A stretch of DNA of 64,000 nt, taken from positions 62,001-126,000 of the forward strand of contig NZ_JQFA01000004.1 of the NCBI RefSeq assembly GCF_000763385.1. The letters run 5' to 3'. Under the pieces are notes generated by a model. That model had not been told where the DNA came from and did not search any database. It saw nothing but the letters and a program-made list of their open reading frames with translations. Below, piece by piece: positions 43,773 through 49,009 of the stretch (position 1 is the stretch's first letter; every line of letters begins with the position of its first letter). The DNA is from Leptolyngbya sp. KIOST-1 (GTDB lineage Bacteria > Cyanobacteriota > Cyanobacteriia > Phormidesmidales > Phormidesmidaceae). Position numbers and translations under genes: made by a program.

Positions 43773-43987
43773 GGGCGTCCCCGGTGACTGCCTGCGGCCG
43801 GTCGCCACCCTAATCTTCAGAACTCCTGACAACTGAATCGACTGCCGCGCTGAGGGCCTAAAATAGTATGTTGGCCCTCGGCGCTGTTTTGCCTCAGCGC
43901 CGGTTCGCTAGCCGGCCCCCGGACGAGCGGCTCTGCGTCGCCCGATCTGCCCAGTTTGACTCAGTCCCTTCACGTCAGCATCCTCCT

Positions 43988-46096
43988 ATGAGCTCCTCCA
44001 TTCGCTTTCTCATGTGTGCCCCCCACCACTACGAGGTGGACTATGTGATCAACCCCTGGATGGAGGGCAACATTCACCGCTCATCCCTCGCCACCGCCCA
44101 GGAGCAGTGGCAGAATTTGTACCAGATCATCAGCGATCGCGCCGATGTGGACCTGGTCAAGCCCCAGCAGGGCTGGCCTGACATGGTGTTTACCGCCAAC
44201 GCCGGGCTGATTCTGGGCAACCAGGTGGTACTGAGCCGCTTTTTGCACCCCGAGCGCCAGGGGGAAGAGCCCTACTTCAAGGCGTGGTTTGAGGAGCAGG
44301 GCCACGAAGTGTTTACCCTACCCTCGGAACTGCCCTTTGAGGGAGCCGGGGACGCCCTGCTGGACCGGGAAGGGCGCTGGCTGTGGGCGGGCTACGGCTT
44401 TCGCACCGAGCTGGACTCCCACGGGCTGGTGGCCCAGTGGCTGAACATTGAAGTGCTGTCGCTGCATCTGATGGACGAGCGCTTCTACCACCTCGATACC
44501 TGCTTTTGTCCACTGACCGGGGGCTACCTGCTCTACTATCCCCCCGCCTTCGACGCCTACTCCAACCGTCTGATCGAACTGCGGGTGCCGCCCGAAAAGC
44601 GGATCGCCATCGACGAGCCCGACGCCGTCAACTTTGCCTGTAACGCGGTCAATATCGATCGCACCGTGATCATGAACCAGGCCAGCGACGAACTGAAGGC
44701 CCGCCTGGCCGAGGTGGGCTTTGAGGTGGTTGAAACCCCCCTGACCGAGTTCCTGAAAGCCGGGGGCGCCGCCAAGTGCCTCACCCTGCGCGTCACCGAG
44801 CCGCTGCACCCCGAACCTGCCCAAGGCGGCCTGCTGGTCCGCACCGTCACCATGACCGGGCACCTGCTCGACTCGGGCCTGGTCAGCCGGGCGCTGGATC
44901 TGGTTATGGAAGGGGGCGGCAGCTTCCAGGTGCTGAACTTTGACCTGGGTGAGCAGCGCCAGAGCACGTCCTCCGCCGAAATTCGCGTCTCGGCCCCCGA
45001 TCGCGAGGTGATGGACGAAATCATGGCCCAGCTGATCGACCTGGGCGCGGTGGCCCTGCCCGAAGATCAGCAGGATGCCCACCTGGTCACCATTACCCAG
45101 GCCGGTGTCGCCCCCGACGACTTTTACAGCTCCACCATCTACCCCACCGAAGTGCGGGTGCGGGGTCAGTGGGTGCGGGTGCAGGGCCAGCGCATGGACG
45201 GCGTGATTGTGGTCTCACAAACCGAGCCGGTGGCCACCTGCAAGCTGCTGCGCGACCTGGCCGTGGGCGACCAGGTGATCGTTGGCTACGACGGCATTCG
45301 CAGCGTGCGCAGCACCAAGGACCGCAGCCGCGCCGCCCACGCCACCGAGGAATTTAGCTTCATGGGCTCCGGCGTCTCCAGCGAGCGCCGGGTAGAGCTG
45401 ATTGTGGAGCAGGTGGCGTGGGACCTGCGCCGCCTGCGGGACCAGGGCGGCAAAGTGGCCGTGGTGGCTGGGCCGGTGGTGATTCACACCGGCGGCGGCG
45501 ACCACCTGTCGCGGTTGATCCGCGAGGGCTACGTGCAGGCACTGCTGGGGGGCAACGCGATCGCCGTCCACGACATCGAGCAGGCCATGCTGGGTACCTC
45601 CCTGGGCGTTGACATGAAGCAGGGCACCTCGGTGCGAGGGGGACACCGCCACCACCTGCGGGCAATCAACGCCATTCGCCGCTGCGGCAGCATCGCCAGC
45701 GCTGTGGAACAGGGGGTGCTGACCAAAGGCGTGTTCTACGAGTGCGTCAAAAACAACGTGCCCTTCTCCCTGGCCGGGTCCATTCGCGACGACGGTCCCC
45801 TGCCCGACACCAAGATGGACCTGATCGCGGCCCAGGCCGACTACGCCCGCCTGATCGAAGGCTGCGACCTGATTTTGATGCTCTCGACCATGCTGCACGC
45901 GATCGGCGTCGGCAACATGACCCCCTCCGGCGTCAAAATGGTCTGCGTTGACATCAACCCCGCCGTGGTCACCAAACTGGCCGATCGCGGCTCCCTGGAG
46001 TCGACCGGGGTGGTCACCGACGTGGGCCTGTTCCTCAGCTTGCTGGTGAAGCAGCTCGATCGCCTCACCCAGCGGCACGTTGTGACCAAGGTGTAA
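43988..46096 (+). CDS. argZ: Arginine dihydrolase / ornithine cyclodeaminase (ArgZ/AgrE)
   Basis: 702 residues. N-terminal half is an amidinotransferase-like arginine dihydrolase (MCAPHHYEVDYVINPWMEGN, QGWPDMVFTANAGL, HLDTCFCPL) with the catalytic Cys264 in GAAKCLTLRV; it makes ornithine, ammonia and CO2 from arginine. The central and C-terminal LOR/SDH region (VRTVTMTGHLLDSGLVSRALDL onward; GDHLSRLIREGYVQALLGGNAIAVHD, DMKQGTSVRGGHRHHLRAINAI) is the ornithine cyclodeaminase part giving proline in AgrE. ATG 43988 matches the conserved start. Used when arginine or cyanophycin is the nitrogen store. Followed by a strong terminator. Confidence 0.92.
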   Translation: MSSSIRFLMCAPHHYEVDYVINPWMEGNIHRSSLATAQEQWQNLYQIISDRADVDLVKPQQGWPDMVFTANAGLILGNQVVLSRFLHPERQGEEPYFKAWFEEQGHEVFTLPSELPFEGAGDALLDREGRWLWAGYGFRTELDSHGLVAQWLNIEVLSLHLMDERFYHLDTCFCPLTGGYLLYYPPAFDAYSNRLIELRVPPEKRIAIDEPDAVNFACNAVNIDRTVIMNQASDELKARLAEVGFEVVETPLTEFLKAGGAAKCLTLRVTEPLHPEPAQGGLLVRTVTMTGHLLDSGLVSRALDLVMEGGGSFQVLNFDLGEQRQSTSSAEIRVSAPDREVMDEIMAQLIDLGAVALPEDQQDAHLVTITQAGVAPDDFYSSTIYPTEVRVRGQWVRVQGQRMDGVIVVSQTEPVATCKLLRDLAVGDQVIVGYDGIRSVRSTKDRSRAAHATEEFSFMGSGVSSERRVELIVEQVAWDLRRLRDQGGKVAVVAGPVVIHTGGGDHLSRLIREGYVQALLGGNAIAVHDIEQAMLGTSLGVDMKQGTSVRGGHRHHLRAINAIRRCGSIASAVEQGVLTKGVFYECVKNNVPFSLAGSIRDDGPLPDTKMDLIAAQADYARLIEGCDLILMLSTMLHAIGVGNMTPSGVKMVCVDINPAVVTKLADRGSLESTGVVTDVGLFLSLLVKQLDRLTQRHVVTKV

Positions 46097-47315: not shown

Positions 47316-47383
47316 GTCGTCGTGCTGCCCCAGTTCAGGCGGTAATCTAGGGGAGCCGACCGTTGCCATTGCTACCCCCTGCC

Positions 47384-49009
47384 ATGCCCACCGTCACCTT
47401 TCCCCTTGCCTACCTGCAGCGGCTCACCGCCACCGACCCGCAGCAGCTCGAACAGCAGGCCTTTGACTACGGCCTCGATGCTACCCTGGGCCACCAAACC
47501 CTGGAGGTCGAAGTGACGGCCGAGCGGCCTGACCTACTGGCAGCAGAAGGGTTTACCCGCGCCATCAACATCTACAACGGGTTGGTTCGCACCGTGCCCG
47601 ACCAGCTGATGCCTTCAGGCTGCCGGGTGGTGGTGCTGCCGGAGGTGCTGCCCCTGCGCCCCCACATTGCCGCCCTGGTGGTGCGCGGGGCCGACCTACA
47701 GGATGGTGGGCTGGAGGTGCTGGTGCAGTTTCAGGAAAAGGTGACCCAAACCTTTGGTCGTCAGCGCAAAAAAATTGCGATCGGCGTCTACGACCTCGAC
47801 CAGATCAGCGGCAACTTGACCTACGGCGCAGAACCGCTCGATGAGCTGAGCTTTGTGCCCCTGCACAGCACCCAGCCCATGACCGCGCGGCAGATCCTGC
47901 ACTCCCACCCAGCAGGCAAACTCTACGCCCACACGCTGAAAGCCAGCCACCAGGCTCCGGTGCTGCGCGATGCCGCTGGCACTGTGCTCTCCATGCCGCC
48001 AATTGTCAACAGCGCGGGGGTGGGAGAGGTCAAAGCCAGCACCCGCAACCTGTTTATCGATGTCACCGGCATTCTGCCACAAACGGTGGTGGAAACCGCC
48101 AACATTCTGGCCCACAACTTTTTAGATACCGGGGCCGAGGTACAAACCGTCGAAATCGTAACTCCCCAGGGAACCTCCACAACTCCCAGTCTCGTCCGCC
48201 GCGCGGTGCCCTTCTCCGCCAAGTACCTGAACGAAATTATGGGAACGGCCATTCCCAAAAGCAGCTTAGGGAAGGTGCTGTCTCGCATGGACTTAGACGT
48301 CAGCGGGACCGATGTGGTGCACGTGCCCACCTACCGCACCGACATCTTTAGCCAGGTGGATATCGCGGGCGACCTGCTGGTGGCCCTGGGTATCGCCTCC
48401 CTCCAGGCCGAACCGCTGGCGGTCAAGTTTCACCTGGGCGAGGCCGACCCGCTGCGCCAGGTCATGTTTAAGGTGGGCGATCTGGCCCAGCGCATGCAGC
48501 TGACCGAAGTCAAAAGCTACGTGCTCACCGACCCCGACATTCTCGATCTGTTTGCGGCCCCCTACGTGCAAACGGGCAATGCCAAAAGCCGCACCTATAG
48601 CGCCACCCGCCCCACACTGCAGGGGGGGCTGCTCGATATTTTGGCCCGCAACATCAGCGCCCCCAAACCCATCAACATCTACGAAACCGGAGAAATCCTG
48701 CGGTTCAACGCCGCCGGTGCCGTTCGCGAAAGCCAGTGCTGGGGCTTCGCCAGCCTCGATGCCCGCGCCTCGTTTACTACGGCCAAGGCCTACATGCAGA
48801 CAATGCTCAAGGCGCTGGGCGTCCGCTATGCCCTGGCGGTGCGCGATGCACCCTACTACATTGCCGGTCGCGCTGCTACGGTGCTGGTTGAAGGGCAGCC
48901 AGTGGGAGAATTTGGCGAAATTCATCCCCAGGTGCTGGAGCATTTTTCGTTCCCAGAGCCCGTCTGTACCGGCGAGCTAGATTGCAGCGCCAGCCTAATG
49001 ATCGGTTAA
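47384..49009 (+). CDS. Archaeal/eukaryotic-type phenylalanyl-tRNA synthetase beta-subunit homologue
   Basis: 541 residues, the size of an archaeal PheT and not of the ~800-residue bacterial PheT that cyanobacteria use. It lacks the bacterial N-terminal EMAP-like tRNA-binding and C-terminal anticodon-binding domains. Archaeal-type blocks in order: VEVTAERPDLLAAEGFTRAI; B3/4 domain with FQEKVTQTFGRQRKKIAIGVYDLD, FVPLHSTQPMTARQILHSHP, SMPPIVNS and STRNLFIDVTG; B5 with VPTYRTDIFSQVDIAGDLL; catalytic-like SRTYSATRPTLQGGLLDILARN, INIYETGEI, ASFTTAKAYMQTMLKALG and GRAATVLVEGQPVGEFGEIHPQVL. No alpha-subunit gene is adjacent. Start fits MPTVTF at 47384. Function in this organism is unknown. Confidence 0.88.
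   Translation: MPTVTFPLAYLQRLTATDPQQLEQQAFDYGLDATLGHQTLEVEVTAERPDLLAAEGFTRAINIYNGLVRTVPDQLMPSGCRVVVLPEVLPLRPHIAALVVRGADLQDGGLEVLVQFQEKVTQTFGRQRKKIAIGVYDLDQISGNLTYGAEPLDELSFVPLHSTQPMTARQILHSHPAGKLYAHTLKASHQAPVLRDAAGTVLSMPPIVNSAGVGEVKASTRNLFIDVTGILPQTVVETANILAHNFLDTGAEVQTVEIVTPQGTSTTPSLVRRAVPFSAKYLNEIMGTAIPKSSLGKVLSRMDLDVSGTDVVHVPTYRTDIFSQVDIAGDLLVALGIASLQAEPLAVKFHLGEADPLRQVMFKVGDLAQRMQLTEVKSYVLTDPDILDLFAAPYVQTGNAKSRTYSATRPTLQGGLLDILARNISAPKPINIYETGEILRFNAAGAVRESQCWGFASLDARASFTTAKAYMQTMLKALGVRYALAVRDAPYYIAGRAATVLVEGQPVGEFGEIHPQVLEHFSFPEPVCTGELDCSASLMIG

Follow-up and report, generated by a model that had tools for sequence, protein, structure and literature searches.

Why does Leptolyngbya sp. 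KIOST-1, a cyanobacterium with a complete bacterial phenylalanyl-tRNA synthetase (PheRS), also carry a gene for a PheRS beta subunit of the archaeal and eukaryotic type? The gene, which we call pheT*, lies at 47384..49009 on the plus strand of a stretch of 64,000 nucleotides (the window; positions 62001-126000 of contig C4, NZ_JQFA01000004.1, in a genome, G000, of 6.32 Mb in 13 contigs with completeness 100 and contamination 4.17), and an original prediction made from the letters of the window had described it as a solitary paralogue. We consider it very probable that pheT* encodes the beta subunit of a complete and working second PheRS, gained as a pheST operon that later split, and kept as an auxiliary isoform.

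The archaeal-type subunits and the housekeeping enzyme

The pheT* reading frame runs uninterrupted from an ATG at 47384 to position 49009 (541 residues). The mechanical open reading frame (ORF) begins earlier, at a TTG at 47363; the ATG start gives a Met-Pro-Thr beginning common to 19 of 19 aligned relatives (whose own starts were chosen near the same position). The product passes the archaeal family model TIGR00471 pheT_arch over residues 1-535 (341.2 bits, cut-off 282.65) and fails the bacterial model TIGR00472 pheT_bact (106.7 bits, cut-off 402.65), which it matches over its C-terminal half only (residues 267-536); by sequence, the closest solved structures are human FARSB and a Pyrococcus beta fragment. 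The Pfam domains tRNA_bind (EMAP-like) and FDX-ACB (B8), both of which the genome's bacterial PheT contains, found no match in the product. On the evidence of ORF, family models and structure, pheT* encodes a complete, full-length archaeal/eukaryotic-type PheRS beta subunit, and the original prediction was right about its archaeal length and block order, its lack of the EMAP-like and C-terminal domains of bacterial PheT, and its good preservation; the contrary outcome that it had named, membership of the bacterial PheT family, did not arise.

A search of the whole genome with the PheS domain model PF01409 gave matches only at C4:717949 and C2:3581944, both outside the window, so that pheT* indeed has no pheS nearby. 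The C2 match identifies a 481-residue ORF, pheS*, on the minus strand at C2:3581947-3583392 (L119:6948-8393); a TAG reported inside the match coincides in position with the end of the ORF and appears to be the gene's own stop. The pheS* product passes the archaeal PheS model NF003210 (402.6 bits, cut-off 350), which the bacterial PheS of the genome fails (226.4 bits), and among solved structures human FARSA is closest to it (281.8 bits). The archaeal-type PheS that the original prediction had proposed to look for is therefore present, and pheT*, with a partner on another contig that co-occurs with it across cyanobacteria (see below), is not solitary. Contamination is unlikely as the source of either gene, because the two lie on separate large contigs (3.84 Mb and 2.11 Mb) and the surroundings of pheS* are common to other members of the same genus.

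The same genome holds a complete bacterial PheT of 812 residues (TIGR00472, 755.2 bits; domains tRNA_bind, B3/4, B5, catalytic-like module [CLM] and FDX-ACB) and a complete bacterial PheS of 333 residues. The archaeal-type pair is thus neither the only PheRS of the genome nor its housekeeping enzyme; pheT* is a paralogue beside the usual gene, as had been proposed, and the opposite case, a genome without the usual bacterial pheT, is excluded here.

Co-occurrence and conservation of the two subunits

We followed both subunits through 388 genomes of the class (the beta and alpha draws were requested identically and agree in every genome listed by both; the alpha draw does not list by name 334 genomes without alpha). 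Beta scored above the cut-off in 32 of the 388, and three further clear homologues lie below it (G041 at 255.2 bits, full length; G387 at 222.4 and G029 at 210.7, both cut at contig ends), giving at least 35 carriers; among the matches listed, the next below these homologues is a bacterial-type PheT at 104 bits. Archaeal-type alpha scored above its cut-off in 34 genomes, all of which also have beta, and alpha alone was found in none. The sole beta carrier in this draw in which alpha was not found is an 86% complete draft, G003. In a panel of 80 genomes alpha was present in 34 of 36 beta carriers and in 0 of 44 non-carriers, and among 14 named control genomes four passed the beta cut-off and exactly the four archaea passed that for alpha. 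Carriers comprise 26 of 26 genomes examined of the window's genus plus ten genomes from eight additional genera; together they span four families.

The bacterial enzyme accompanies the pair: bacterial PheT is above its model cut-off in 34 of the 36 beta carriers (in G005, G022 and G025 as partial sequences, at contig ends or in pieces), and G237 has fragments of it below the cut-off. One carrier, G262, has a second bacterial-type PheT-like stretch in pieces at C66:41408-43189 (at most 329.9 bits) in addition to a full one on its contig C111, which is either a paralogue or contamination.

The residues on which aminoacylation and editing would depend are kept in both subunits. Identical in all 34 alphas are F355, R356 and E358 of motif 2, H369, Q370, E372, N408-P409-Y410, E412, A453, and G455, G457 and R460 of motif 3. 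Positions 408-410, which we take to be an amino-acid pocket position, read N-P-Y in archaeal-type alpha and in human FARSA and F-P-F in the bacterial PheS of the same genome; the likeness to FARSA points to an amino-acid pocket of the archaeal/eukaryotic kind. The bacterial editing-site residues are kept in 31 of 31 bacterial PheT sequences compared. In beta, Asn209 (48008..48010, plus strand) is aligned with Pyrococcus Asn217 and is Asn in 36 of 36 homologues; since Pyrococcus Asn217 occupies the place of the bacterial editing-site His, as excerpts of PMC3275996 indicate, the alignment suggests a beta editing site with an archaeal-type Asn instead of the bacterial His. Asp226 (48059..48061, plus strand), aligned with Pyrococcus residue 234, is Asp in 35 of 36 homologues and Glu in G041, as it is in human beta; the position is probably the counterpart of yeast Asp243, and the yeast D243A mutant loses editing, according to PMC4066437.

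Selection was estimated as the ratio of nonsynonymous to synonymous substitution rates (dN/dS, NG86) within the genus, using only pairs with dS of 0.1-1.2 (161 of 325 pairs for beta, 203 of 276 for alpha and 169 of 253 for bacterial pheT). Median ratios were 0.113 for beta, 0.103 for alpha and 0.080 for bacterial pheT, and over the 118 pairs usable for all three they were 0.104, 0.088 and 0.073; by part, the catalytic portion of alpha gave 0.052, its N-terminal extension 0.171 and the B3/4 region of beta 0.149. Both pheT* and pheS* are clearly under purifying selection, slightly weaker than that on the housekeeping gene.

Pfam recognizes four domains in the pheT* product, all encoded on the plus strand. 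The N-terminal B1-like part (residues 1-75, 47384..47608; the boundary at residue 75 is our choice) matches PhetRS_B1 at residues 37-66 below the cut-off (22.2 bits, cut-off 26.8), and the B3/4 editing domain (residues 113-241, 47720..48106) is also below it (24.0 bits, cut-off 29.3) and is supported by a structural match; the B5 domain (residues 276-336, 48209..48391; 43 bits, cut-off 28.6) and the CLM (residues 352-533, 48437..48982; 105.1 bits, cut-off 22.4) pass. The predicted model of the product has a mean predicted local distance difference test score (pLDDT) of 75.8, with values below 50 in residues 341-384 and 392-410, its C-terminal half being partly of low confidence. It matches the Pyrococcus beta N-terminal fragment 2cxi_A with Z 39.5 and a root mean square deviation (RMSD) of 1.9 over 333 aligned residues (residues 2-337; TM-score 0.88 on the target), human beta 3l4g_B with Z 36.5 and RMSD 20.2 over 478, and bacterial beta chains with Z 19-21 and RMSD of about 22; where the RMSD is large, individual domains superpose but their arrangement relative to each other does not. 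The model points to a fold of the archaeal/eukaryotic beta kind (Z 39.5 and 36.5 against 19-21). In alpha, an N-terminal extension of about 195 residues is mostly well predicted; the structural matches listed cover residues 228-480 only, with none on the extension, which is no argument for a new fold. In archaeal/eukaryotic-type PheRS this part of alpha is built of DBD domains, two of them winged-helix. As an observation apart, the PheT-like region of the human ribosome-associated protein LRRC47 (6zxd_k, 8xp3_JC) matches the beta family by sequence (63.0 bits), and 8xp3_JC fits the beta model with Z 21.0 and RMSD 2.7 over 201 aligned residues.

The substrate appears to be shared with the bacterial enzyme. 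Among the 42 tRNA genes found by Rfam in the genome, all typed by ARAGORN, two are tRNA-Phe(GAA) genes with the same sequence, ordinary for a bacterium, and the set includes no suppressor and no dedicated second tRNA-Phe; a dedicated tRNA for the archaeal-type PheRS of this genome was accordingly rejected. With a single kind of tRNA-Phe available, the archaeal-type enzyme would have to use the bacterial tRNA-Phe that its bacterial counterpart charges. The archaeal-type enzymes of spirochaetes may do likewise, to judge from excerpts of PMC3191353. Elsewhere, BLAST with the tRNA-Phe gene gave matches in 43 of 44 genomes, most with one full bacterial copy at 91-100% identity (in G014 only a 3' fragment turned up, in G006 the copy is truncated by the end of a contig, the match in G387 is weak and partial, and G074 gave no match); BLAST would miss a divergent second tRNA-Phe, and a pattern search gave only full copies, 3' fragments and stray matches. 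The two genes in G000 (C4:1107398-1107472 and C2:3778583-3778657) are identical including most of the flanks examined, probably through a recent duplication. A 48-base 3' fragment of tRNA-Phe also lies at C4:1169652-1169699, about 62 kb downstream of the intact C4 gene and on the same strand, an arrangement such as an integrative element with a tRNA-Phe attachment site leaves; several of the 44 genomes, with and without the PheRS pair, have similar fragments.

Gene arrangement, neighbours and origin

In five genomes the two genes are adjacent on the same strand with pheS* first (intergenic gaps of 57 bases in G030, 70 in G074, 10 in G200, 230 in G237 and 9 in G262), and the surroundings of these adjacent pairs differ, except between G200 and G262, which belong to one genus. 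In the other 29 of the 34 genomes having both, the genes are not adjacent within the flanks examined; where they share a contig they are as far apart as about 460 kb (G012), 0.82 Mb (G032) and 1.75 Mb (G015). Tracing the adjacent and separate states over the 34 carriers takes at least three changes on the beta tree and likewise on the alpha tree, so that on these trees, which have weak branches (G074, G159), a very long G041 branch and unsure roots, the arrangement altered more than once. The simplest interpretation would be an ancestral operon whose genes later separated several times.

The neighbours vary by lineage, and no pathway genes are common to all the neighbourhoods of the pair. In the main Nodosilinea clade the neighbours are dps and a glyoxalase gene, in some members also an SPFH gene; in G200 they are EF-G and a glutamate dehydrogenase-like gene, in G030 Trm1, Usp and a DsbA-like gene, and in G074 a glyoxalase-like and a hydrolase-like gene. 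The EF-G gene of G200 (L127:5035-7125, minus strand; TIGR00484, 955.7 bits) is divergent and lies upstream of pheS*, and a homologue adjoins pheS* in G262. In G030 a gene for a Trm1-like tRNA dimethyltransferase (L125:4026-5132, plus strand) stands directly upstream of pheS*. Trm1 is usually regarded as archaeal/eukaryotic. A link between Trm1 and the pair was considered and rejected: PF02005 scores above the cut-off in 32 of 40 cyanobacteria, with no distinction between genomes that have the pair and those that do not, and three operon carriers (G200, G237 and G262) lack it. The window itself holds, upstream of dps and pheT*, a gene for an ArgZ/AgrE-type arginine dihydrolase fusion (43868-46096).

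The original prediction had suggested that pheT* was probably gained by transfer, and we retain transfer as probable; going by the family models, the donor may have been an archaeon. The beta and alpha trees have their main branches in common (the beta tree being rooted with just two outside beta stretches, both on very long branches, of which the label EUK_8s8b is ours, and the alpha and bacterial PheT trees on G041 by choice). G074 groups with G200 and G262 in a quick tree of bacterial PheT and not in the archaeal-type trees; the approximately unbiased (AU) test on this grouping gave p values of 0.043 for alpha and 0.037 for beta, which are weak since the group was named after the trees had been seen. 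A mobile or viral source is not supported by the searches: among 72,556 plasmid records, 11 gave a match to beta, each at less than 60% identity, ten of them over only the C-terminal 46-55%, the part common with bacterial PheT, and the remaining one, a 2.1-Mb Fusobacterium record, at 21% identity over 93%; among viral contigs, searched with two short peptide patterns for each subunit, no relative of beta or alpha was confirmed.

Weighing the explanations

We propose that the beta subunit would join the unlinked archaeal-type alpha in an alpha2beta2 enzyme, in which alpha would activate phenylalanine and charge the only kind of tRNA-Phe in the cell, and beta would supply the catalytic-like scaffold, along with a B3/4 site whose editing residues are of the archaeal type. 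The genes would have entered cyanobacteria as a pheS-pheT operon from an archaeal-type source, the operon would later have split, probably more than once, and the second PheRS would have been kept beside the bacterial one as an auxiliary isoform. Among the roles that the original prediction had offered, that of a second PheRS beta subunit is supported by the archaeal-type alpha partner and its co-occurrence with beta, and we judge a repurposed amino-acid-activating enzyme or a regulator not to be needed.

Several observations weigh against this account. Two beta carriers, G003 (86% complete) and G025 (84%), have no detected alpha, and the draft G029 has no bacterial pheT besides the archaeal-type gene itself. 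Evolution is a little faster in beta and alpha than in the bacterial beta. A search near pheT* gave no sigma-70-type promoter, though just 0.4 were expected. Superposed on human beta, the two halves of the beta model do not take up the same relative positions, the model of the pheS* product is poor (mean pLDDT 62.2), and none of the Pfam DBD models matches the N-terminal extension of alpha. Nor could the transfer be traced to a source.

A different reading, in which the pair derives from PheRS and works outside translation, either as a regulator or as an enzyme that activates, say, phenylalanine or another aromatic acid for a pathway, is suggested by the complete bacterial PheRS that the cell already has and by the existence of aminoacyl-tRNA synthetase (aaRS) paralogues with non-translational roles (noted in excerpts of PMC9437257); all the catalytic and editing positions checked are kept, however, a beta editing site would be of little use without tRNA, and no shared pathway genes surround the pair, its neighbours depending on lineage, so that we regard such a role as unlikely. 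The genes are unlinked in the window's genome and not adjacent in most carriers, and the pairing of alpha with beta is a prediction; beta might instead be a trans-editing factor that works by itself, or it might join the bacterial alpha in a hybrid PheRS, with the archaeal-type alpha separate. Against the co-occurrence of alpha in 34 of 35 carriers among the 388 genomes, the adjacency in five genomes and the similar trees, we find this extremely unlikely. Loss of adjacency in 29 of 34 genomes is likewise what decaying, functionless remnants of a transferred operon could show, but most carriers have full-length genes (contig ends truncate the partial ones), dN/dS is about 0.1 and falls to 0.052 in the catalytic part of alpha, and no alpha occurs without beta among the 388 genomes; we give decay almost no credence.

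Why an auxiliary PheRS should be retained is a separate matter. The window copy adjoins dps, and editing of meta-tyrosine (m-Tyr) by PheRS matters in Escherichia coli under oxidative stress, according to PMC4066437, so that a second PheRS might be kept against charging with oxidized phenylalanine; but excerpts of PMC4066437 and PMC3275996 indicate that the bacterial enzyme copes better with m-Tyr than eukaryotic-type PheRS does, which makes m-Tyr protection unlikely, and the dps neighbourhood is confined to one clade. We regard this role as very improbable. The most likely reason for keeping the second PheRS would be its use as an isoform with a different inhibitor sensitivity or regulation. 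That duplicate aaRSs may differ in inhibitor sensitivity is a recognized idea, as PMC3436685 indicates, and the different amino-acid pocket makes it plausible for the archaeal-type PheRS; in its strong form, in which the enzyme is an inhibitor-insensitive spare with which the cell survives (or makes) a compound aimed at the bacterial PheRS pocket, and the pair has been kept by selection alone after several independent break-ups of the operon, we hold the idea only tentatively and think it rather doubtful. The other main option would be conditional use, by analogy with the cyanobacterial threonyl-tRNA synthetase (ThrRS) T2.

The enzyme belongs to a known kind. AARS Online names the archaeal/eukaryotic-type enzyme PheRS-A (PMC11580382), and the cyanobacterial pair resembles its members, human FARSA/FARSB and Pyrococcus horikoshii PheRS, in that both subunits pass the archaeal models, beta has the same domain order, and the alpha pocket and the editing Asn are as in FARSA and at Pyrococcus 217; it differs in sitting beside a bacterial PheRS, in its unlinked genes and in the alpha extension without a Pfam match. 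In spirochaetes (Borrelia, Treponema, Spirochaeta), excerpts of PMC3191353 report that an archaeal PheRS of similar size, also an alpha and beta pair in a bacterium, replaced the bacterial one, whereas in 35 of the 36 cyanobacterial carriers some bacterial pheT sequence, at the least, is still present. Bacteria with an archaeal-type PheRS are therefore already known, and the cyanobacterial case is a further instance; we found no title or abstract on such an enzyme in cyanobacteria, and Luque et al. 2008 on cyanobacterial aaRSs may mention one. Anabaena ThrRS T1/T2 are duplicated ThrRSs, of which T2 is induced by low zinc, and spare aaRSs are common, as PMC4787780 states; T2, too, shares its specificity with a housekeeping aaRS that it accompanies, and the second cyanobacterial PheRS is unlike it in belonging to the archaeal family.

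A lone and puzzling gene thus becomes a clear example of one bacterium that houses two aaRSs alike in specificity and different in domain origin. Its unusual feature is that the subunit genes came apart and yet were retained as a pair. For annotation, a second pheT without a neighbouring pheS is not necessarily a stray paralogue, and the two coexisting PheRSs make it testable why bacteria keep spare aaRSs.
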